A stretch of DNA of 64,000 nt, from NCBI RefSeq assembly GCF_004217415.1, contig NZ_SHLI01000001.1, positions 248,001-312,000 on the forward strand, in the 5' to 3' direction. The stretch is from Spiribacter vilamensis. Lineage in GTDB: Bacteria; Pseudomonadota; Gammaproteobacteria; Nitrococcales; Nitrococcaceae. Below the pieces are notes generated by a model. The model was given only the letters and a program-made list of their open reading frames with translations. It searched no databases and had not been told where the DNA came from. The position numbers and the translations under genes are program-made. The first letter of the stretch is position 1, and each line of letters begins with the position of its first letter. Positions 30,243 to 39,215 of this stretch are shown piece by piece.

Positions 30243-30923
30243 ATGCGAGATCTCCCCGCCGCCCTGATGGATCGGTTCCGGTATGCCTCGGTGGATCTTG
30301 CCGGGCGCGACGAGGGCGTTTACGAGGCTGCCGGCCGGCCAACGACCGATCCGATCTTCGGTCTTGGCCCGGCCGACGCCCGGATCGCGTTTTTCGGTCG
30401 TGATCCGGGGCGGGACGAGGTCCACGTCGGCGTTCCGTTCATCGGCGCCGGGGGGCGCCAGGTACGGCGGGTGCTGTTCGAACGCCACCACGGCGGTGTA
30501 ATGCGTGGTACCGACGATGCCCTCATGGCGGGCAGGTCTTATTTCTGGGCCAACACCGTCCCCTACAAGCCGAAGGGCAACAAGGCCTGGTCGATGGCGG
30601 TCAAGCGGCGCTTTCAGCCGCTGGTCGCCGAGGTCCTGTGCGATCTGTGGCATGGCGGTGACGTCATCACACTCGGTCGCGAGGCCTTTTTCTGGTTTGG
30701 CCTTGGACAGTCCGCAGGCGCCCGCCGTCAGCTGGAGCAACACTGGCAACGCGAAGATCGTTTCGAGCAGTCCCTCGGACTCGACTATCGTGGCCCCGAT
30801 GACAGGGTCCGTCAGCTCACGCTGCATCCGCTGCCGCATCCCTCACCGCTCAATGCCACCTGGTTCAAGCACTTCCCGGGGCTGCTGGCGGCACGCCTGG
30901 ATCGGCTGGAGGCCTCACCGTGA
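30243..30923 (+). CDS. Uracil-DNA glycosylase superfamily protein
   Basis: A 226-residue protein with the UDG fold. Motif 1 FFGRDPGRDEVHVGVPF..GAGG (about residues 50-73) is like the GExPG..ED..G.PF.G pattern of family 4/5 enzymes; motif 2 is HPLPHPSPLN near residue 197. The catalytic-site residues differ from classic family 4 (Asp rather than Glu after Arg) and the four Fe-S cysteines are absent (a single Cys). Uracil removal is plausible but not certain. Its stop overlaps the creatininase-family start (GTGA). Confidence 0.75.
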   Translation: MRDLPAALMDRFRYASVDLAGRDEGVYEAAGRPTTDPIFGLGPADARIAFFGRDPGRDEVHVGVPFIGAGGRQVRRVLFERHHGGVMRGTDDALMAGRSYFWANTVPYKPKGNKAWSMAVKRRFQPLVAEVLCDLWHGGDVITLGREAFFWFGLGQSAGARRQLEQHWQREDRFEQSLGLDYRGPDDRVRQLTLHPLPHPSPLNATWFKHFPGLLAARLDRLEASP

Positions 30924-31729
30924 CGATATCGGAGTGGGGGGGCCACACCACGCAATCCCTCCGCGCCGTCGGCGGATCCGAACCCGTCGCCCTGCTGCCG
31001 CTGGGCGCCGTTGAGCAGCATGGTCCCCATCTGCCTCTCTCGACCGATGCCCGCATTGCCGAGGGACTGTCACAGGCCGCCATCGAGCGCTGCGCCGACG
31101 ACGTATCGGTGTTGCGCCTGCCAACACTCAACATCGGCCAGAGCATTGAGCACGCGGACTATCCGGGAACTCTGGCTCTGGAGCCGGCCACCTTCGAGGC
31201 AATGCTCTACGATATCGGCGCGTCGGTAGCCCGCTCGGGGTTTCGTCGACTGGTCATGTTCTCGGCCCATGGCGGCAATCTCGCCGCCATGGATACCGCG
31301 GCACTGCGACTGCGCCGCGATCTCGGGCTGCTTGTGATAAAGGCTTGCTACTTCGACTTCCCGCCCCCCGTGGACGCGATCAGTGCCCGCGAGGCGCGTG
31401 AGGGGCTGCATGGTGGTGCGCTTGAAACGGCCCTGATGCGGCATTTTTCGCCGGCGCAGGTGGTCGATCATCAAGTCGATCATGCGGTTTCCGTGGAATA
31501 CGATGCCCTGGCCGCGTTCGAGTGGATTGGCGCGGAAACCCGGCCGGCGCGATTTGCCTGGCTGGCCGGCGATCTCAATCCGACGGGTGTTACGGGGGAC
31601 GCCCGGTGCTCCGACGCGGCACTCGGCGCGCGGCTCGCAGCGCACTACGCCGAATCACTGGCAGCAATCGTGGCCGAAACCGCCGGTTTCCCGCTGGCGC
31701 GGCTGTCGACGCCGCACCCGCTTACCTAG
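30920..31729 (+). CDS. Creatininase-family amidohydrolase
   Basis: A 269-residue creatininase-fold metal hydrolase: LGAVEQHGPHLPLSTDARIA (metal Glu, His, Asp, about residues 29-48), FSAHGGN (His about 115) and GGALETALM (metal Glu). The family includes creatininase, MftE and the archaeal deformylase ArfB, which acts right after GTP ring opening in flavin and F420 synthesis. It sits next to a GTP cyclohydrolase II gene, which makes an ArfB-like role attractive; this is inference. GTG start overlaps the upstream stop. Convergent with ribA, overlapping by 4 bp. Confidence 0.85.
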   Translation: MTISEWGGHTTQSLRAVGGSEPVALLPLGAVEQHGPHLPLSTDARIAEGLSQAAIERCADDVSVLRLPTLNIGQSIEHADYPGTLALEPATFEAMLYDIGASVARSGFRRLVMFSAHGGNLAAMDTAALRLRRDLGLLVIKACYFDFPPPVDAISAREAREGLHGGALETALMRHFSPAQVVDHQVDHAVSVEYDALAAFEWIGAETRPARFAWLAGDLNPTGVTGDARCSDAALGARLAAHYAESLAAIVAETAGFPLARLSTPHPLT

Positions 31730-32838
31730 CGGGACTGGCGGCGGGCGGCGTTGGTAATCGCCTCGCCCAGCCAGTGGCCTGCCCGTTCGGCCTTGGTCGT
31801 CAGATAACGTTCGTTATGGCGGTTAACGGCGCCGTGGAGCGCCTCACGACCGGCAATCTCGATGCCGTGACGCTCCAGTGCAGCGATTTTGGCGGGGTTG
31901 TTTGTCATCAACCGGACTCGATGAATATCGAGATCGTTGAGCATCGCGGCGGCTACCTCGTAACGGCGCTCATCTGCTCCAAACCCGAGCAGCCGGTCGG
32001 CGTCCACGGTGTCGAGCCCGGTGTCCTGGAGGCCGTAGGCGCGGAGCTTGTTGGCAAGGCCGATGCCACGGCCTTCCTGGGCAAGATAGAGGAGGACACC
32101 ACCGCCCTCGGCGGCAATCGTGCCGACAGCGCTTCGGAGTTGCTCACCGCAGTCACAGCGTAGCGAGCCGAACAGATCGCCGGTAAGACAGGCGGAGTGC
32201 ATGCGCAGGGCAGGGGTCTCGGGCCAGTGATCGGGCTCACCGACGATCAGCGCGACGTGCTCCAGCAGCCCGTCAGCCTCGCGATAGAGGATAAACCGCG
32301 ACTGCTCCGCCTCTGCCAGAGGCACTCGCGCCTCGCTGATGCGTTCGGGCTGTCGGGCGTTTTCGATGCAGGCGGTGCGAATATCCGCTATATCGACGGA
32401 GAGGATTTCGCCGCACCGGATCTCGTCATCGAGCCGCGTATCGTCGCGGCCGGTACCAAGAGCCACCAGTGCCGGCAACAGGGTTGCCTGTCGGGCGAGG
32501 TGCAGCGCCTGCTGCTCTGCAGGATCGGCAGCCCGGCCGGGTCGTTCGGTGCGGGGAGCGGCTCGGTCGCTGGCGAGCCTGATCGCGGTTTCGACGGGCT
32601 CATCCGCATCCAGTGCCATGGCCAGATCGTGATCGTCGTCGTTCTCCAGCCCCACTGCGTGGGCGCGGTGCCGCGTGATCAACAGATACGGGTCGTCCGT
32701 GGCCAGCGTCCGGGCCCGTGCCAACAGGGCCTCGCTCAGGTTTTCGAGGGCCAGTATCAGCATCCCGCCTTCCGGGTGAGCCAGATGGACGGGCTCGCCC
32801 CGCCTGAGGTCGATCAGTGCGCGCCGAATGCGCTGCAT
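31726..32838 (-). CDS. ribA: GTP cyclohydrolase II with a degenerate RibB-like N-terminal domain
   Basis: A 370-residue protein. Residues about 195-370 are a complete GTP cyclohydrolase II: zinc cysteines in CLTGDLFGSLRCDCG, YLAQEGRGIGLANKLRAYGLQ, DTVDA and LMTNNPAKI. It opens GTP to formate, pyrophosphate and 2,5-diamino-6-ribosylamino-pyrimidinone phosphate. The first about 190 residues resemble a DHBP-synthase fold (IRRALIDLRRGEPVHL) but lack the acidic catalytic DREDEGD-type motif, as in the long RibA of alphaproteobacteria. ATG 32838 behind AAGGAG. Divergent from the RibD-type reductase by 62 bp; likely a specialised rather than housekeeping copy. Confidence 0.88.
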   Translation of the reverse strand: MQRIRRALIDLRRGEPVHLAHPEGGMLILALENLSEALLARARTLATDDPYLLITRHRAHAVGLENDDDHDLAMALDADEPVETAIRLASDRAAPRTERPGRAADPAEQQALHLARQATLLPALVALGTGRDDTRLDDEIRCGEILSVDIADIRTACIENARQPERISEARVPLAEAEQSRFILYREADGLLEHVALIVGEPDHWPETPALRMHSACLTGDLFGSLRCDCGEQLRSAVGTIAAEGGGVLLYLAQEGRGIGLANKLRAYGLQDTGLDTVDADRLLGFGADERRYEVAAAMLNDLDIHRVRLMTNNPAKIAALERHGIEIAGREALHGAVNRHNERYLTTKAERAGHWLGEAITNAARRQSR

Positions 32839-32900
32839 GCCTGCTCCTTGGAAACGATTTCTCGCAATAGACCGTCCGGCCCTGTAACAATTCCGCCAAT

Positions 32901-33731
32901 ATGGCACAAAATAATGCATCAGAAACGGGGTTGCGGCCAGAATCGGTTTGGCCTGAACTCGTTCGCCGCTGTCGGGGCGACTCGCTGAACGGCTCCTCTC
33001 CGGCTGATTCGCAATGCCCGGCGCCCGCGGACGTGACCGGGCGCTCCGCCCGTGAACTCGTTACCGAGCTGCAGGCACGCTACGCACCACTGGTCCGGCC
33101 GGTGACCGAGCGGCCACGGGTCGTCGCCCAGCTCGGGCAGAGCCTGGATGGCCGGATCGCCACGCCCACCGGCCACTCACACTACGTCACCGGCGAGGCC
33201 GACCGGGCCCATTTGCATCGCCTCCGGGCGCTCTGCGATGCGGTGCTGGTCGGGGCGGGGACCGTTGTCGCTGATGACCCGCGGCTGACGGTCCGTGCCG
33301 TGGAAGGTCCCAACCCGACCCGCGTGGTCGTGATGAGCCGTGATGACCTCGCGCCCCGGCGGCATCTGTTCGAGGATGGTGCCGCGCCGACCTGGGCGGT
33401 TACCGGGCCGACCGCCGTGCCCCCGCCGGTGGATCGCCACTTTTCGCTGCCGGAACTGTCACCGGCGGCGGTACTGGAGTGCCTGTCCGCCGCCGGTATC
33501 CGGCGTTTGCTGGTCGAGGGCGGGGCGCAGACGGTCTCCGCCTGGCTTGCTGCGGGATTGGTGGACTCGCTTTATCTGGCCGTAGCGCCAGTCATTATCG
33601 GTTCGGGGCCGACCGGGCTGAACCTGCCTGTCATCGAGCACATGGACCAGGCCTGGCGTCCCGCCGTCGAGGCATTCGATCTGGGGGTCGACCGGCTCTA
33701 CCGGCTCGACTTCACCGTCGCAGAAGGGTGA
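32901..33731 (+). CDS. Stand-alone RibD C-terminal-type reductase (Rib7-like)
   Basis: A 276-residue dihydrofolate-reductase-fold protein. Residues about 75-270 match the RibD C-terminal domain: VVAQLGQSLDGRIATPTGHSHYVTG, LRALCDAVLVGAGTVVADDPRLTVR, RRLLVEGGAQT. This domain reduces the ribosyl side chain of pyrimidine intermediates with NADPH. The zinc deaminase half of RibD is missing; instead there is a unique N-terminal about 70 residues. Divergent from ribA and convergent with the flippase-like gene (20 bp overlap). With GTP cyclohydrolase II it could act on the deaminase-independent (2,5-diamino) intermediate as in fungi and archaea. Confidence 0.85.
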   Translation: MAQNNASETGLRPESVWPELVRRCRGDSLNGSSPADSQCPAPADVTGRSARELVTELQARYAPLVRPVTERPRVVAQLGQSLDGRIATPTGHSHYVTGEADRAHLHRLRALCDAVLVGAGTVVADDPRLTVRAVEGPNPTRVVVMSRDDLAPRRHLFEDGAAPTWAVTGPTAVPPPVDRHFSLPELSPAAVLECLSAAGIRRLLVEGGAQTVSAWLAAGLVDSLYLAVAPVIIGSGPTGLNLPVIEHMDQAWRPAVEAFDLGVDRLYRLDFTVAEG

Positions 33732-34593
33732 TCAGCCCGGGTGTGCTCGCCACCAGCGACAATGCCCCGTAAAGCACTGCGGCACTGACACCCTCGGCGA
33801 CCGGGAGGCCGGCGAGCGGCCAGAGAACGGCCGCGGCCCCCTCGCGCAGCCCCCAGCCGGCGATGCTCGCCGGGATCAGCATGGCAAACAGGACCAGTGG
33901 AATCAGCGGTAACCAGGTCCCGGGCGATGATTCGGGGCCCAGTGAAAGCACGCAACAGGCGTAAACGCCAATGTAGCTGATGGCGACGACAATCGAGGCA
34001 ATCAGCTGGACGGGCAGGACACGTGGCGCAAGCAGCGCGTAACGCAGTGCCTGCCACCAGTCGATCAGCCAGTGCGGGCGCCGGCCGCTGATCAGCGCCA
34101 GCGCCACGATGATTGTGCCGGCACCGCCGATGACCGCCACCGCCCCGGAGAGCCAGCCGTCGGGGAGGGTGAGTGCCTTGCCCGGTGGCCAGTATCCCCA
34201 TACCCCCAGCGCCAGCCCGACCATAGCCAATTGCCCCGAGAAGCGTTCGATCACAACCGCCTGGAACGCGGGTCCGCGACGGGGGGCATCGTGGCTATGG
34301 CGCCAGGCGCGTTGGGCATCGCCGACAACACCACCGGGCAGGACCTGGTTGATCAATGTCGCCAGGTAGTATTCACGGATCGCGACGCCGCGGCGCAGTG
34401 ACAAGCCCAGCCGCGTGGCGGTGAACCGCCAGCGCCACGCCGATAGCAGCACCTGGGCCACCGTGATCAGCAGACCCGCCACAAGCCAGCGCCAGTCCAC
34501 CTGCTCGAGCCGCTCCAGGACGCCGGCACCGAATCGCTCGGCGATGAAGCCGAGCATCAGGAGGCTGATCAGCAGTCGGATCAGTCGCGGCAC
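33712..34593 (-). CDS. Lysylphosphatidylglycerol-synthase-like / flippase-like membrane protein (UPF0104)
   Basis: A 293-residue protein with about eight membrane helices, of the LPG-synthase transmembrane/AglD family. Typical signs: LSAWRWRF near residue 55, INQVLPGGVVGDAQRAWRH (the conserved N-x-x-LPGG-GD-R motif), ERFSGQLAMVG and the C-terminal AGWGLREGAA. Members move lipids or lipid-linked sugars across the membrane. GTG 34593 is chosen: it lies 13 bp inside the methyltransferase 3' end and begins just before helix 1. Last gene of the minus-strand part of the pterin-like cluster. Confidence 0.82.
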   Translation of the reverse strand: MPRLIRLLISLLMLGFIAERFGAGVLERLEQVDWRWLVAGLLITVAQVLLSAWRWRFTATRLGLSLRRGVAIREYYLATLINQVLPGGVVGDAQRAWRHSHDAPRRGPAFQAVVIERFSGQLAMVGLALGVWGYWPPGKALTLPDGWLSGAVAVIGGAGTIIVALALISGRRPHWLIDWWQALRYALLAPRVLPVQLIASIVVAISYIGVYACCVLSLGPESSPGTWLPLIPLVLFAMLIPASIAGWGLREGAAAVLWPLAGLPVAEGVSAAVLYGALSLVASTPGLITLLRR

Positions 34594-35399
34594 GGGATGG
34601 CCAGCAGATCCTGATGACCGACAAGGATGCGGCTTTGATCGAGCAGTCGCAGCCGATCGTTGAGCCATGTGTCGATGGTCTCGGCAGCGTCGGGGCGCTG
34701 CGCGCGGGCGGCCTCGTGCCAGCCCTCGATGAGGAGCTTCTGTAGCGACGCCTCCTCGGGGCCGAGTTGCCAGTCACTCCAGCGACGTTCAACCGTTATC
34801 CCCCGCTCGACAAACATCCGGGCCGCAACGTCGGTTGCGTCCGGTCCCAGGGCGGGTCCCATGTCCTTTGTACCGCGTTGATGGGCGAGGATCGCCGTCT
34901 CGATAAGCTCGTCTCCGGTCACCGCTGGTGCGAGTGACATCCGGCCATCCACGCTGAGGGCGAAGAGCGCTGGGATGCATCGCCGGGCGCATGTGTCCAC
35001 GACCCGCTGCATCCATTCCCCGGTGACAAGATCGAGCAGGGCGGAAGCGGTGAGCAGATCGGGGGTTCCGGGCAGGCAGTCGGGGAAGTCGTTCAGATCG
35101 GCCGGGTGGGCATAGGCATGGATCCGGGTGTCACTTGCCCACCTGTCGCCGGGAGCGGTGGCCACGGCACGGTCGAGCAGATCGGTGTCATGGTCAATAA
35201 GGGCCCACTGCTGGGGTTGTGGCAGCCGTGGCGCGAGGTAACGGAGATTGCTGCCAGCCCCGGCGCCAAGATCGGCGACATGGACGCGGCGGTCTCCGGG
35301 CAGCAAGCCGGCGAGGGTCAGTGAAAGGTCGTCGGCGCGGGCCGTATGATCGACGGGCTCACGCAGTGTCAGCCACTGGGCCGCGAATCGCTCGGGCAT
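34581..35399 (-). CDS. Class I SAM-dependent methyltransferase
   Basis: A 272-residue Rossmann methyltransferase: motif I VADLGAGAGSN (about residues 41-51), motif II IDHD, motif IV LLTASALLDLV. The target is unknown. It overlaps the glycosyltransferase gene upstream by 31 bp and the flippase-like gene downstream by 13 bp, so the three are tightly coupled. The cluster context suggests that it methylates the small molecule built by the neighbouring enzymes. Confidence 0.83.
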   Translation of the reverse strand: MPERFAAQWLTLREPVDHTARADDLSLTLAGLLPGDRRVHVADLGAGAGSNLRYLAPRLPQPQQWALIDHDTDLLDRAVATAPGDRWASDTRIHAYAHPADLNDFPDCLPGTPDLLTASALLDLVTGEWMQRVVDTCARRCIPALFALSVDGRMSLAPAVTGDELIETAILAHQRGTKDMGPALGPDATDVAARMFVERGITVERRWSDWQLGPEEASLQKLLIEGWHEAARAQRPDAAETIDTWLNDRLRLLDQSRILVGHQDLLAIPCRD

Positions 35400-36445
35400 G
35401 ATGAGTCCTCCTCGAGAAGATCGATAAAATCGGCGACGCTCTTGTTCCAGCTGTTGAGCTGATCCCGGGCGCGTCGGGCGCCGCGGGCCAGATCATGACG
35501 TCGTTCGGGGTGGTCGAGAACGCTCGCCAGCGCCGTCGCCAGTGCCTCGGGGTCATCCGGCCGGACAGCTATACCGGCGCCCTCCGGCAGAGTGGTGGCC
35601 AACGCACCCCCGGTGGTGGTCACGATCGGCAGGCCATGGGCGACCGCTTCACTGATGACCATGCCGAATCCCTCGTAAACCGAGGGCAGGATGAACAGAT
35701 CCGCCGTGCGATAGGCCGTGTCGAGCTGATCGGCGCCGACGGCGCCATCAATCTCGACGCGATCGCCAAGGGCCAGCCGATCGCGCTGCGCCGCAATCGC
35801 CGCGGCGTAGTCGGGATCGAGATCAGTGGGGCCCACCAGCCGGCAATACCAGGGCCGATCGGTAAGCCGGGAGAGTGCGTCGAGCAGGTGATGCTGGGCC
35901 TTGCGGGGGGTCAGTGAGGCGACGCACAGCAGCACCGGATTGTCACCGGGTGAACCGGTGGCGAGCGGTCGGGGCGCACAGCCCGGTGGTATGACATGAA
36001 CGCTACCGTGATGGATGCCCAGTACGCTGAGGCGGTGCGCGGTGAACCGGCTGGTCGTAATAACCCGCTCGGCGAGGGCAACGGCCCGGGCCTCGTCGGC
36101 GAGCCATTGACGCGCTCGATCCGGGTCAATACCGGTCTCATCGGCGAGCGGGTGGTGAATCAGCGCGTCGAGCCGCAGCCGTTGCGCATGCCCGGCGAAT
36201 ACGTCCGCCAGCCCGCCCAGGACGAGGCCATCGACGATGACCCGCTGACCTGCCGGTATTCTCGATAGCGCGGCGGCCACGGTCTGGCGGGCGGTCGCAT
36301 CGCCATCGGGGTAGCGCCCCGGGAGCTCGTGCACCGCCACCGATCGCCCGGCTGCGCGCAGGCCGGTAACAATTGTCTGGTCATAACGGCTGCCCCCGGT
36401 GGGTCGGTCCAGCGCCCCGGGCACCAGGAAATGGCAGTCGGTCAC
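35369..36445 (-). CDS. GT4-family glycosyltransferase
   Basis: A 358-residue GT-B enzyme. N-domain starts CHFLVPGALDRPTGGSRYD (sugar-acceptor loop). The C-domain has LLCVASLTPRKAQHHLLDAL, DLFILPSVYEGFGMVISEAVAHGLP (the E-x7-E nucleotide-sugar motif, about 265-290) and TTTGGALATTLP. It probably transfers a sugar from a nucleotide donor to a small molecule or lipid. It overlaps the PTPS-like gene by 4 bp upstream and the methyltransferase downstream. Acceptor unknown; the neighbours suggest a pterin- or pyrimidine-derived acceptor. Confidence 0.85.
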   Translation of the reverse strand: MTDCHFLVPGALDRPTGGSRYDQTIVTGLRAAGRSVAVHELPGRYPDGDATARQTVAAALSRIPAGQRVIVDGLVLGGLADVFAGHAQRLRLDALIHHPLADETGIDPDRARQWLADEARAVALAERVITTSRFTAHRLSVLGIHHGSVHVIPPGCAPRPLATGSPGDNPVLLCVASLTPRKAQHHLLDALSRLTDRPWYCRLVGPTDLDPDYAAAIAAQRDRLALGDRVEIDGAVGADQLDTAYRTADLFILPSVYEGFGMVISEAVAHGLPIVTTTGGALATTLPEGAGIAVRPDDPEALATALASVLDHPERRHDLARGARRARDQLNSWNKSVADFIDLLEEDSSCPSDSRPSG

Positions 36446-36846
36446 GGTTGCAGCGGTCGCTCGTACGCGGCCGAAGCGATATGCGATTCATGCAGCGTGA
36501 TGCGGATCCGGTCCAGCGTGCGCGCCGTCTCTCCGAGCTCACCGGCGTGAATGGCGGTCGCGAGCGAGTCGGCGATATGCCGGGCGAGATGCTCGGTGGT
36601 GGTGTTGACCCCCTCGAACTCCGGCAACCCGTCGAGATTGGTGAGGTTATAGCGGCTCAGTATTGTGTGGAGGACCTCCGTGGCGCGGGCGATGTCGACC
36701 ACCACGTTGTCGGCGTCGAGCCGATCGCGAAAGAAGGTTGCATCGGTGACATAGGTTGCGCCGTGAAGCGCCTGTGCGGGTCCGAAGGTCTCACCCTTGA
36801 AGCTGTGCGCGATCATGAAGTGATCACGGACGTTGACGCGGTACAT
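36442..36846 (-). CDS. Divergent 6-pyruvoyl-tetrahydropterin synthase / QueD-like protein
   Basis: A 134-residue T-fold protein. Family layout is visible: MYRVNVRDHFMIAHSF at the start, ALHGATYV, VVDIARATEVLHTIL, NTTTEHLARHI and LHESHIASAAYE at the end. Key residues are changed. Of the three zinc histidines, H14 and H28 remain but the third is A30 (HGA instead of HGH). The catalytic Cys four residues before HGH is Ala. The Asp-His pair of LDHxxLN is lost (YNLTNLD). Standard PTPS or QueD chemistry is therefore unlikely; a related aldolase, epimerase or binding role is possible. Starts 9 bp after the dehydrogenase gene. Confidence 0.8.
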   Translation of the reverse strand: MYRVNVRDHFMIAHSFKGETFGPAQALHGATYVTDATFFRDRLDADNVVVDIARATEVLHTILSRYNLTNLDGLPEFEGVNTTTEHLARHIADSLATAIHAGELGETARTLDRIRITLHESHIASAAYERPLQP

Positions 36847-36855
36847 GCTGACTCC

Positions 36856-37827
36856 TCAGTAGTTGATGCGATGACACAGACCCGAGCCGTTGACGATGTC
36901 GGCCATCGCCTCGGGGAGTTTGTCGAAGGCCGTTTCGCCGTCGATCAGGCAGTCCCAGCGGGGGTGATCGGCGAGCAGCGCCAGGGCCTTGCCCAGGCGC
37001 CGGGCGTGGCCCCAGCGCGGTCGCATGGCGGGCGAAATCTGCCCCACCTGGCTGGCGCGAAGGGTGAGGCGGCCGGAATGAAAGGCCTCGCCGAGCGGGA
37101 CACGGGGCTGGCGGTCGCCAAACCAGCTGGCCTCGACCAGGGTCGCCTCGTCGGCGGCGACCCGCAGCGCGAGCGCGAGCCCGTCCTCGCTACCGCTGGC
37201 ATGGATGACCCGGTCGTTGTCGCCACGGGCGTCGTCCGGGTGAGCGAATTCGACACCCAGTGGATCGGCGAGGAAACGCCGGGCCGGATTGATATCGACC
37301 AGTTCGACCTCCGTCCCCGGTATCTCGGCACACAGGGCGGCCGTCAGGGCCCCGACGACGCCCGCGCCGATGACGCTGATCCGTTCGCCCGCCCGCGGGG
37401 CGGCATCCCAGCAGATATTCAGCGCGGTTTCGGTGTTGGCGGCGAGAACCGCCCGCTCGGGCGGCAGCGTCGCTGGCAGCGGCTGAACGGCGTCCGCCGG
37501 TACGGTGTAGCGACTCTGGTGCGGATAGAGGCAGAAAACGGTCTGGCCGCGCCACTCATTGGGCCCGGCCTCGACGACGCCGACGCTGGCATAGCCGTAT
37601 TTGACCGGTGCCGGAAATGATCCCGCCTGAAACGGTGCCCGCATCCGATCGTGCTGGCTCTCGGGGATTCTTCCGTGCCAGACCAGCGATTCGGTGCCGC
37701 GGCTGATCCCGGAGTGGAGTGCCCGGATACCGAGTTCGCCGGTTGCGGGCTCGGGCACGGTTTCCGCCCGAAGCGCTCCGGTGCCTGGATGCGTAATCCA
37801 GAAAGCCCTGCTGCTACGCTCATCCAT
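36856..37827 (-). CDS. MDR-superfamily (zinc-independent) dehydrogenase
   Basis: A 323-residue medium-chain dehydrogenase. N-terminal GroES-like domain with SGISRGTESLVWHGRIP (SRGTE replaces the zinc ligand C-G-T-D of true alcohol dehydrogenases) and KYGYASVGVVEAG; Rossmann domain with ISVIGAGVVG near residue 152 and VELVDINPARR. No structural-zinc cysteine loop. Automatic names such as zinc-dependent alcohol dehydrogenase are therefore misleading. First gene of the five-gene minus-strand operon; divergent from the CDP-alcohol phosphatidyltransferase by 66 bp. Likely oxidises or reduces an alcohol on the cluster's product. Confidence 0.83.
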   Translation of the reverse strand: MDERSSRAFWITHPGTGALRAETVPEPATGELGIRALHSGISRGTESLVWHGRIPESQHDRMRAPFQAGSFPAPVKYGYASVGVVEAGPNEWRGQTVFCLYPHQSRYTVPADAVQPLPATLPPERAVLAANTETALNICWDAAPRAGERISVIGAGVVGALTAALCAEIPGTEVELVDINPARRFLADPLGVEFAHPDDARGDNDRVIHASGSEDGLALALRVAADEATLVEASWFGDRQPRVPLGEAFHSGRLTLRASQVGQISPAMRPRWGHARRLGKALALLADHPRWDCLIDGETAFDKLPEAMADIVNGSGLCHRINY

Positions 37828-37893
37828 TACGCCGTTACGCTCCCCTGTGCTGCTAGAATTCGGGCAAATCGATCGGATAACCGGAGCGTAGCA

Positions 37894-38610
37894 TTGGTTC
37901 CCCCTCGGACAGACGAGTCGCCGTTACAGATTCTTCCCGATTTCCTCGTGGCCGCCATCGTGTTGACGGGGGCCGCGGCAGGGCTGCAGCGGGCGCTCGA
38001 TCTGCCCGCCGGTGTAATGGTCCTCGCGCTGTTGGCCTACGCGGCGATGGCGTTGCTGGTCTGGCGCCTGCGCGGCAACCGGCCACTGACACCGGCCGAT
38101 CGGGTAACCCTGGGCCGCGGCCTGCTGGTCATGCTGCTGATCGGGCTGTTGCCGTCGGCCGGCGCGCTGCCTGCCGAGCCCGCCCTGCCGTTTGCACTGG
38201 GGATAACCGCGGTTTTGCTCGATGGCGTTGATGGATGGGTGGCGCGTCGACTCGACTGCGTCACGGCGGCGGGGGCCCGCTTCGATATGGAGCTGGATGC
38301 CGTGCTGCTTCTGGTGCTGACGCTGTGGCTTTTCAAACTCGACCTCGCCGGTGTCTGGGTGCTCGCGATCGGCGCCTGGCGCTACGCATTCATCCTCGCC
38401 GGTCGTTGGCGCCCGTCGCTGCGCCAGTCCCTGCCGGCGTCGCAGCGACGCCGCATCATCTGCGGGATCCAGGCAAGTGGTCTGGCGGTATTGCTGGCTC
38501 CGGGGTTTCCGTCGCCATGGATTCCTCCCCTCGCGGCGCTCCTGCTAGTACTGCTCAGCTATTCATTTATAGTGGATATCGCCGCCCTGTGGCGGTTTCT
38601 TCGTCATTAA
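37894..38610 (+). CDS. CDP-alcohol phosphatidyltransferase family membrane enzyme
   Basis: A 238-residue membrane protein with about six helices and the full family motif DGx2ARx8Gx3Dx3D at about residues 112-134 (DGWVAR, then G, FD and ELD). Such enzymes join a CDP-activated alcohol (for example CDP-diacylglycerol) to another alcohol or phosphate. Start TTG 37894 with GGAG 8 bp upstream; no ATG or GTG fits better. Not the normal PgsA or PssA by size (extra N-terminal helices). Divergent from the MDR dehydrogenase and followed 11 bp later by yceI. Confidence 0.82.
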   Translation: MVPPRTDESPLQILPDFLVAAIVLTGAAAGLQRALDLPAGVMVLALLAYAAMALLVWRLRGNRPLTPADRVTLGRGLLVMLLIGLLPSAGALPAEPALPFALGITAVLLDGVDGWVARRLDCVTAAGARFDMELDAVLLLVLTLWLFKLDLAGVWVLAIGAWRYAFILAGRWRPSLRQSLPASQRRRIICGIQASGLAVLLAPGFPSPWIPPLAALLLVLLSYSFIVDIAALWRFLRH

Positions 38611-38621
38611 GGAGATGTGTC

Positions 38622-39215
38622 ATGGCGCGATTCCGGCAGCAGTTAATCCTTCCCGTCCTTGGTCTGGCCGCCGCTACTGCGGTTCAGGCGGAGCCGGAGC
38701 GTTTTCAGATCGATGAGAGTCACGTCAGTGTCGGCTTCCTGGTCGGGCATGCCCGGTTCGCTGATGTTCTCGGCCAGTTCACCGACGTCTCCGGCGGCTT
38801 TGTCTATGATGCGGACACACAGACGCTGACCTCCGGACGCGTCGAGGTCGTGGCCGAAACGGTCTTCACCGGCCATGACGAACGCGATGATCATGTGCGG
38901 GACGGCGACTTCCTTGATGTCGACGCCCACCCGGTGATCGTTTTCGAGGCGAGCGGCTACCAGCCCGTTGACGACCGTCGGGGCGTGCTGAAGGGTGATT
39001 TGACGCTGTTGGGGGAGACTCGCCCCATCGAGCTGGATCTGACCCTTAACCGCCGTGGCGACCATCCAATCGGCGGTGCCGATACCCTCGGAGGATCCGC
39101 GCGTGGAACGATCCAGCGCAGCGACTTCGGCATGGATTACGCGCTACAGGGTGATCTGGTCAGTGATGCCATTGAGCTGATCGTCGAGTTCGAGGCGGTC
39201 CGACAGGATGACTGA
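38622..39215 (+). CDS. yceI: YceI-family periplasmic lipid-binding protein
   Basis: A 197-residue exported protein: signal peptide to about residue 23 (AVQA|EPE), then the YceI lipocalin-like barrel with FQIDESHVSVGFLVGHARFADVLG, TGHDERDDHVRDGDFLD and GETRPIELDL. Homologues bind polyisoprenoids or ubiquinone. Good AAGGAG site before ATG. It follows the CDP-alcohol phosphatidyltransferase and overlaps the patatin gene by 8 bp: a three-gene lipid-themed transcript. Confidence 0.88.
   Translation: MARFRQQLILPVLGLAAATAVQAEPERFQIDESHVSVGFLVGHARFADVLGQFTDVSGGFVYDADTQTLTSGRVEVVAETVFTGHDERDDHVRDGDFLDVDAHPVIVFEASGYQPVDDRRGVLKGDLTLLGETRPIELDLTLNRRGDHPIGGADTLGGSARGTIQRSDFGMDYALQGDLVSDAIELIVEFEAVRQDD

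Follow-up and report, generated by a model that had tools for sequence, protein, structure and literature searches.

What does a cell make with a set of genes that opens GTP and, side by side with this, transfers sugars, methyl groups and phospholipids? This question is raised by nine adjacent genes in a window of 64,000 nucleotides from Spiribacter vilamensis (NCBI RefSeq assembly GCF_004217415.1, contig NZ_SHLI01000001.1, positions 248,001 to 312,000), an Ectothiorhodospiraceae-like gammaproteobacterium with a genome of 2.08 Mb. The genes encode a creatininase-family hydrolase, a RibA-like GTP cyclohydrolase II, a stand-alone RibD_C reductase, a flippase-like membrane protein, an S-adenosylmethionine (SAM) methyltransferase, a GT4 glycosyltransferase, a T-fold protein of the PTPS-IV family, an MDR-superfamily dehydrogenase and a CDP-alcohol phosphatidyltransferase. 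An initial annotation had proposed one linked pathway apart from housekeeping riboflavin synthesis, in which a GTP-heterocycle front end is combined with enzymes of the glycosyl-, methyl- and phospholipid-transferring type, and our analysis supports this proposal; for a pigment or UV screen, which it also suggested, evidence was seen in neither direction. The block is a real, widely shared and uncharacterised biosynthetic cluster, and its most likely product is an as yet undescribed lipid or glycoside derived from GTP. With a probability of about 0.5, we read it as a dedicated pathway in which a modified RibA, deformylation by the creatininase-family enzyme and reduction by RibD_C would be followed by tailoring, joining to a phospholipid, flipping and reception by a YceI-like protein.

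The first line of evidence is the linkage itself. The PTPS protein had at least 585 relatives among 84,980 scanned species genomes. Neighbours within 9 kb were counted at the best 80 of these loci and in a stricter set of 55 loci whose flanks reach 7.5 kb in either direction, a set which spans Actinomycetota, Alpha-, Beta- and Gammaproteobacteria, Gemmatimonadota and Acidobacteriota. At the best 80 loci the PTPS gene was accompanied by MDR (80), GT4 (79), methyltransferase (71), CDP-alcohol transferase (68), flippase (59), RibA (53), creatininase (45) and RibD_C (34). The 55 full-flank loci gave 55, 54, 51, 48, 45 (flippase-like), 41, 36 and 24, respectively. The genes flanking the block in the window (ProQ, UDG-like, citrate transporter, patatin, PRK and RraA) recur at one of the best 80 loci. 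Within the genus, 13 of 14 genomes carry the PTPS gene, our own genome included, and order and strand of the nine genes are the same in nearly all neighbourhoods read. The possibility that the genes scatter in related genomes, which the initial annotation had named as a test, was thus not borne out, and the linkage is conserved across phyla. The nine genes, together with YceI in most gammaproteobacterial copies, are a conserved unit.

Since relatives share the gene order and the set turns up again in different phyla, its composition is not a matter of chance. Moreover, gene order and strand vary from phylum to phylum, which indicates repeated selection for linkage and not inertia. The alternative, that operons of two unrelated pathways, one riboflavin-like and the other for a glycolipid, happen to be neighbours, would account for the genes lying on both strands and for RibA, creatininase and RibD_C being the members that are missing most often. 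However, the pieces reunite in other orders and strands in distant phyla, an unrelated GTP cyclohydrolase stands in for RibA in archaea, and gene distances co-vary, the strongest correlation among pairs between groups being that of RibA and creatininase (r 0.84). We therefore regard a chance neighbourhood as improbable.

When gammaproteobacterial genomes were drawn evenly, the cluster was found in 5 of 140, our own genome included. The MDR tree intermixes several bacterial groups, and copies of the cluster are also located on plasmids; this patchy distribution, the mixed tree and the plasmid copies together point to horizontal transfer. A phage search gave no match. One copy lies in a gammaproteobacterial genome of only 1.1 Mb (L158:7092-13416; 99% complete, 28% G+C in the stretch read), where the genes stand in the row YceI, CDP-alcohol transferase, MDR, PTPS, GT4, methyltransferase, flippase and RibD_C. 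That so small a genome keeps the cluster suggests a strong selective role. A lone PTPS-IV-like gene with the variant FGSAQ was also seen on a Streptomyces plasmid (L138:10001-10426), where it adjoins a MEKHLA-domain gene and has no MDR, GT4, methyltransferase or CDP-alcohol gene beside it.

Is the front end simply part of riboflavin synthesis? The initial annotation had asked whether RibA and the RibD-type reductase might be the only riboflavin genes of the organism, and they are not: the host genome has separate genes for RibA at C1:1957262, for a RibBA-type protein at C1:1294666 and for a full RibD, deaminase domain included, at C1:1296495. With this housekeeping set elsewhere, a riboflavin-only reading of the two cluster genes was rejected. 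A second riboflavin branch, which might e.g. serve flavin secretion as has been suggested for Sinorhizobium with its RibBA and BrbF, is a subtler version of the idea; parallel branches have been proposed (PMC9478397), and RibA, a creatininase-type formamidase and RibD_C are all of riboflavin type. Yet the genes at 30-41 kb include no deaminase, working RibB, RibH (lumazine synthase) or RibE (riboflavin synthase), the housekeeping genes are present, and no part in flavin synthesis is known for the invariant partners MDR, PTPS-IV, methyltransferase and GT4, which makes such a branch highly improbable. A third, divergent RibD_C protein of the host (G000:C1:822282-822902, locus L006; 45 bits) is encoded near uvrC and a CDP-alcohol transferase.

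The cluster RibA itself differs from the classical enzyme, which opens GTP and also takes off the formyl carbon. Spoonamore and Bandarian reportedly found that SCO6655, a RibA homologue of Streptomyces coelicolor, stops at the formylated pyrimidine since its Tyr105 is Met. In the RibA of the window the zinc cysteines C54, C65 and C67 and the core domain are present (CLTGDLFGSLRCDCGE, aligned), Arg90 is replaced by Ala (AQEGR) and Tyr105 is retained; the residue numbers are those of E. coli RibA, which serves as a ruler only. The same contrast holds against the host's own housekeeping RibA (RQEGR, Tyr). Across clusters, the canonical pair R90 and Y105 occurs in 0 of 61 clusters with creatininase versus 9 of 16 without it, in rows that are not independent as many loci are close relatives. 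In the case of Streptomyces, the cluster RibA with creatininase has Met at 105, and in the case of Actinomadura it has His, while those actinobacterial clusters whose RibA is canonical (Arg90, Tyr105) have no creatininase. In the case of Proteobacteria, Gemmatimonadota and Acidobacteriota, Tyr105 is kept, position 90 is Ala, Asp or Gly, and creatininase is found in nearly all. Different changes in RibA (Met, His, Ala) thus share creatininase as partner.

The creatininase carries the metal-binding motifs of its family (EQH..TD, SAHGGN, HGGALE), and E32, Q33, H34, D43, H117, H164 and E169 are near-invariant in 65 sequences. Against the ArfB model it scored 0.0094 and 15.7 bits, with a cut-off of 180. 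From its residues and its pairing with altered RibA, the protein is likely a formamidopyrimidine deformylase, an activity published for BrbF, a bacterial enzyme of the creatininase family (PMC9478397). The RibD_C protein shows the motifs SLDGR and DDPRLTVR, and its best solved relative (6p8c, 3.6e-28) is a 2,5-diamino-6-ribosylamino-pyrimidinone 5'-phosphate reductase; a reductase of this type acts on the undeaminated pyrimidine. Altogether we consider the entry reactions, i.e. GTP to formamidopyrimidine, deformylation and reduction, to be quite probable.

Haloarchaea offer a version of the cluster in which the first enzyme is exchanged. In Haloarcula halophila, GT4, CDP-alcohol transferase, MDR, PTPS and methyltransferase are accompanied by GTP cyclohydrolase III (PF05165, 6.6e-81), an enzyme that is unrelated to RibA and performs the same opening of GTP. 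Since it replaces RibA in Haloarcula, the GTP-opening step belongs to the pathway. GTP cyclohydrolase III is found on 5 of 72,556 plasmids (PLSDB); three of these are Haloarcula plasmids that also carry the cluster PTPS, and in the one of the two Natrarchaeobaculum records that was read its gene overlaps the MDR gene. In H. marismortui and H. sinaiiensis a creatininase lies a few kb from the cluster. What stays constant in haloarchaea is the set of MDR, PTPS and methyltransferase, to which GT4 is usually added; MDR, PTPS-IV and methyltransferase, with GT4, are the heart of the pathway. Two haloarchaeal clusters (L147:4919-6889 and L140:5643-7382) contain a GFO/IDH/MocA oxidoreductase, in one case fused to an aldo/keto reductase, which possibly substitutes for RibD_C.

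The PTPS protein is the sole COG0720 member of the host genome, and annotated records that list a PTPS-IV protein label it, in all cases examined, as a queuosine or tetrahydropterin enzyme. In members of the family F21, G22, P23, A24 and Q25 are invariant, so that the protein bears the FGPAQ signature of PTPS-IV as given in PMC5445326. It matches 3d7j (SCO6650, a structural-genomics entry) at 1.6e-65. The residue comparison that follows draws on the generally known roles in PTPS/QueD, with E. coli QueD as numbering ruler only. The bacterial motif FGPAQxxHGA has no Cys or Glu at the catalytic place (compare CxxxHGH and CxxxxxHGH, or ExxHGH in type III). Relative to QueD, the Asp-His pair has become Asn-Leu in the protein of the window, and HGA stands for HGH, with the third zinc His being Ala in all aligned bacterial members; haloarchaeal members retain both His. 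The ring-anchoring Glu is retained in PTPS-IV. The earlier suggestion that the protein acts on pterins cannot be accepted as it stands, since neither the catalytic Cys nor the Asp-His pair is present and one zinc His is missing.

A role in a known cofactor, either queuosine (the PGAP label), folate or F420, would agree with the annotation as 6-carboxytetrahydropterin synthase and with an unpublished remark in PMC5041015 that places PTPS-IV in F420 synthesis. Searches of the host genome, however, gave no QueC (PF06508) match over the cut-off and no match to CofH (TIGR03551) or CofD (PF01933), and the cluster holds no queuosine or F420 gene. As these genes and the PTPS/QueD catalytic residues are missing, the queuosine/F420 assignment was rejected, the label is very probably wrong, and service to a known cofactor is, in our estimate, most improbable.

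At the level of single genes, all nine were confirmed where the initial annotation had placed them, eight with Pfam support and the MDR through NCBIfam relatives. One start and the extent of the block were revised: the CDP-alcohol transferase, first begun at 37651, probably starts with TTG at 37894 as judged from homologue length, and YceI was added as a tenth gene. The true start of the flippase-like gene is likely near 34593, and that of the RibA-like gene possibly near 32841. MDR, PTPS, GT4, methyltransferase and flippase form a run of overlapping or nearly touching genes, in which the GT4 gene shares 4 bases (ATGA) with the PTPS stop, and the CDP-alcohol transferase is transcribed divergently from this run.

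Table 1. Genes of the cluster in the 64,000-nucleotide window (positions counted from its first letter), with the match or model behind each name.
Gene product	Position	Strand	Evidence
Creatininase-family hydrolase	30920..31729	+	PF02633 4.9e-60
RibA-like GTP cyclohydrolase II	31726..32919	-	PF00925 6e-57; PRK08815 8.6e-99
Stand-alone RibD_C reductase, without deaminase domain	32901..33731	+	PF01872 1.8e-41
Flippase-like membrane protein (MprF N-terminal / TIGR00374 type)	33712..34668	-	PF03706 (LPG_synthase_TM) 1.5e-35; TIGR00374 1.7e-8
Class I SAM methyltransferase, cluster-specific family	34581..35399	-	Methyltransf_25 1.3e-4; AlphaFold model
GT4 glycosyltransferase	35369..36445	-	PF00534 (Glycos_transf_1) 2.9e-30
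PTPS-IV family T-fold protein	36442..36846	-	PF01242 2.3e-21; FGPAQ motif
MDR-superfamily dehydrogenase, BchC-like	36856..37827	-	TIGR01202 3.2e-12
CDP-alcohol phosphatidyltransferase	37894..38610 (open frame from 37651)	+	PF01066 (CDP-OH_P_transf) 1.8e-12
YceI-like secreted lipid-binding protein, signal peptide	38622..39215	+	PF04264 3.9e-35

The RibA-like protein has about 190 additional N-terminal residues, which look like a degenerate RibB domain. The MDR protein resembles BchC and threonine dehydrogenase-like models of NCBIfam. Zinc-dependent MDR alcohol dehydrogenases hold their catalytic metal with Cys and His-Glu; where these ligands are expected, the cluster protein has GISRGTE and KYGYA, with S42, Y77, G78 and Y79 near-invariant. 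For the methyltransferase, whose sequence match is weak, an alignment-based AlphaFold model reached a pLDDT of 94.6 (a single-sequence model only 36.7), and its best fold matches are SAM methyltransferases with Z up to 19 and many different substrates. The model thus points to a small-molecule SAM methyltransferase, the fold giving no narrower substrate.

On the lipid side, the CDP-alcohol transferase has the complete motif D-x2-D-G-x2-A-R-x8-G-x3-D-x3-D (DGVDGWVARRLDCVTAAGARFDMELD), with D191, D194, G195, A198, R199, G208, D212 and D216 near-invariant in 91 sequences; no solved relatives of it were found. YceI begins 11 bases downstream with a good ribosome-binding site ahead of it, adjoins the transferase in 17 of 20 same-order loci, and is found beside it also in Halomonas, Thioalkalivibrio, Wenzhouxiangella and some betaproteobacteria. 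In most copies from gammaproteobacteria it forms part of the unit as a tenth gene. From these genes a lipid anchor is plausible, and for hosts with the transferase we see the chances of the product being lipid-attached as evenly balanced.

The competing view is a pyrimidine or pterin that is methylated, glycosylated and soluble, akin to a nucleoside-like secondary metabolite, for which transferase, flippase and YceI would be a neighbouring membrane module or an export aid. It gains from the minimal sets, namely MDR-PTPS-methyltransferase in Halobellus, MDR-PTPS-GT4-methyltransferase-RibD in Methylosinus and ribokinase-MDR-PTPS-methyltransferase-RibD in Rhodobacteraceae SC52, and it loses from the presence of transferase and flippase in 48 and 45 of the 55 full-flank loci. 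Haloarchaeal clusters, too, still carry the CDP-alcohol transferase although their membrane lipids are different. A soluble end product is possible but, on balance, rather unlikely. In two Rhodobacteraceae (L149:6834-7754 and L148:10997-11887) a ribokinase/PfkB gene, once with an inositol monophosphatase, replaces CDP-alcohol transferase and flippase.

In a reduced neighbour comparison, the recurrent extras were an FkbM methyltransferase, a sulfatase/LtaS-like membrane protein (a label from sequence reading and record annotation, as the one tested had no Pfam match), cytochrome b561 and MdoH/MdoG. In the flanks of L088, L090, L095, L125, L127, L131 and L137, genes for osmoregulated periplasmic glucans (MdoH, sometimes with MdoG) recur beside the cluster in alpha- and gammaproteobacteria and Gemmatimonadota, and others have the sulfatase/LtaS-like protein. 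For periplasmic glucans, the head group of the lipid might act as donor. Genes of the cytochrome b561 type adjoin RibD_C in Rhizobiaceae and Thiodictyon (L139:13055-13582, L141:12528-13085 and L144:12011-12544); taken together with the YceI of other clusters, they hint at a redox role in the membrane.

Our preferred dedicated pathway would then run as follows. Firstly, the modified GTP cyclohydrolase II (GTP cyclohydrolase III in Haloarcula) would open GTP and halt fully or partly at the formamidopyrimidine nucleotide, from which the creatininase-family enzyme would remove the formyl group to give 2,5-diamino-6-ribosylamino-pyrimidinone 5'-phosphate, and RibD_C would turn the ribosyl into a ribityl chain. 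Secondly, the product would be tailored by the invariant core of MDR dehydrogenase, PTPS-IV and methyltransferase, and by GT4. Here the MDR enzyme may oxidise the ribityl C2' to a ketone with which the free 5-amino group condenses, and PTPS-IV, with its ring-anchoring Glu, may hold and close the ring to a skeleton like 7,8-dihydroneopterin, with no GTP cyclohydrolase I involved. Thirdly, in most hosts the CDP-alcohol phosphatidyltransferase would couple the product to a phospholipid, the flippase-like protein would carry this lipid to the outer leaflet, and in gammaproteobacteria the periplasmic YceI would receive it. The front end of this scheme is well supported; its single reactions, the anchoring to a lipid, and the product with its use are predictions. 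Taken to its end, a pterin route independent of GTP cyclohydrolase I that places a methylated, glycosylated, phospholipid-attached and possibly redox-active pterin or pyrimidine head on the outer face of the membrane in bacteria and haloarchaea is a tentative idea, and an unlikely one in this full form.

Several points weigh against the dedicated pathway. Seven clusters have a non-canonical RibA and no creatininase within reach; two of them are from Rhizobiaceae (L139 and L144), a family in which BrbF is located elsewhere in the genome (PMC9478397). That R90A halts the reaction early in proteobacterial RibA, where Tyr105 is kept, is a guess. RibD_C is absent near most actinobacterial clusters. 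CDP-alcohol transferase and flippase are lacking in Methylosinus (L137), Halobellus (L163) and Rhodobacteraceae (L149), and in such hosts the core product may be soluble. The ring closure is a conjecture, and the product and the reactions are predicted from the genes.

The pathway, compact and patchy in its distribution, occurs among soil actinomycetes (Streptomyces), proteobacteria that are salt-loving or have small genomes, Gemmatimonadota and haloarchaea. With the entry reaction known, its product could be found starting from GTP. The function of PTPS-IV would thereby be settled, and a membrane lipid of a new kind or an extracellular redox group may come to light.

Regarding known systems, the closest record is a neighbourhood of PTPS-IV from 2017, with the same FGPAQ motif and PF00925 and PF01872 neighbours; in the passages concerned, the PF00925 enzyme is called FolE2, no pathway is given, and the MDR, GT4, methyltransferase, CDP-alcohol, creatininase and flippase partners are not mentioned (PMC5445326). 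The claim of the initial annotation that no pathway with this gene set is known thus holds for the full set and has to be narrowed for the trio of PTPS-IV, GTP cyclohydrolase II and RibD_C, whose neighbourhood was already on record there, likewise with no pathway. Our literature search found no paper describing the cluster, and SCO6650-SCO6655 appear in two papers only, each time as a single mention. The linkage was thus partly noted before, and the full gene set, the entry chemistry and the archaeal counterpart are new as far as the literature searched shows. In toxoflavin- and vicine-type diversions, RibA- and RibD-type enzymes are joined by methyl- or glycosyltransferases, and the known products are soluble; unlike the cluster, these diversions are not known to involve PTPS-IV, MDR, CDP-alcohol transferase or flippase. 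In archaea, GTP is opened by GTP cyclohydrolase III and the product is deformylated by ArfB of the creatininase family. The ArfA-ArfB-ArfC series resembles the order proposed for the cluster in its GTP cyclohydrolase yielding formamidopyrimidine, its creatininase-family deformylase and its reductase acting before deamination, and GTP cyclohydrolase III itself is found in the Haloarcula cluster; the difference is that bacterial clusters use RibA and that the downstream genes are neither those of riboflavin nor those of F420. Lastly, BrbF of Sinorhizobium and Brucella is likewise of the creatininase family and was shown to deformylate the intermediate that is proposed here, whereas it acts in riboflavin synthesis and has marR and cobW as linked genes, a comparison made at the level of the shared family. 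Its partner GTP cyclohydrolase has been reported missing, and the cluster may supply the bacterial formamidopyrimidine-type class of the enzyme that is wanted there (PMC9478397).

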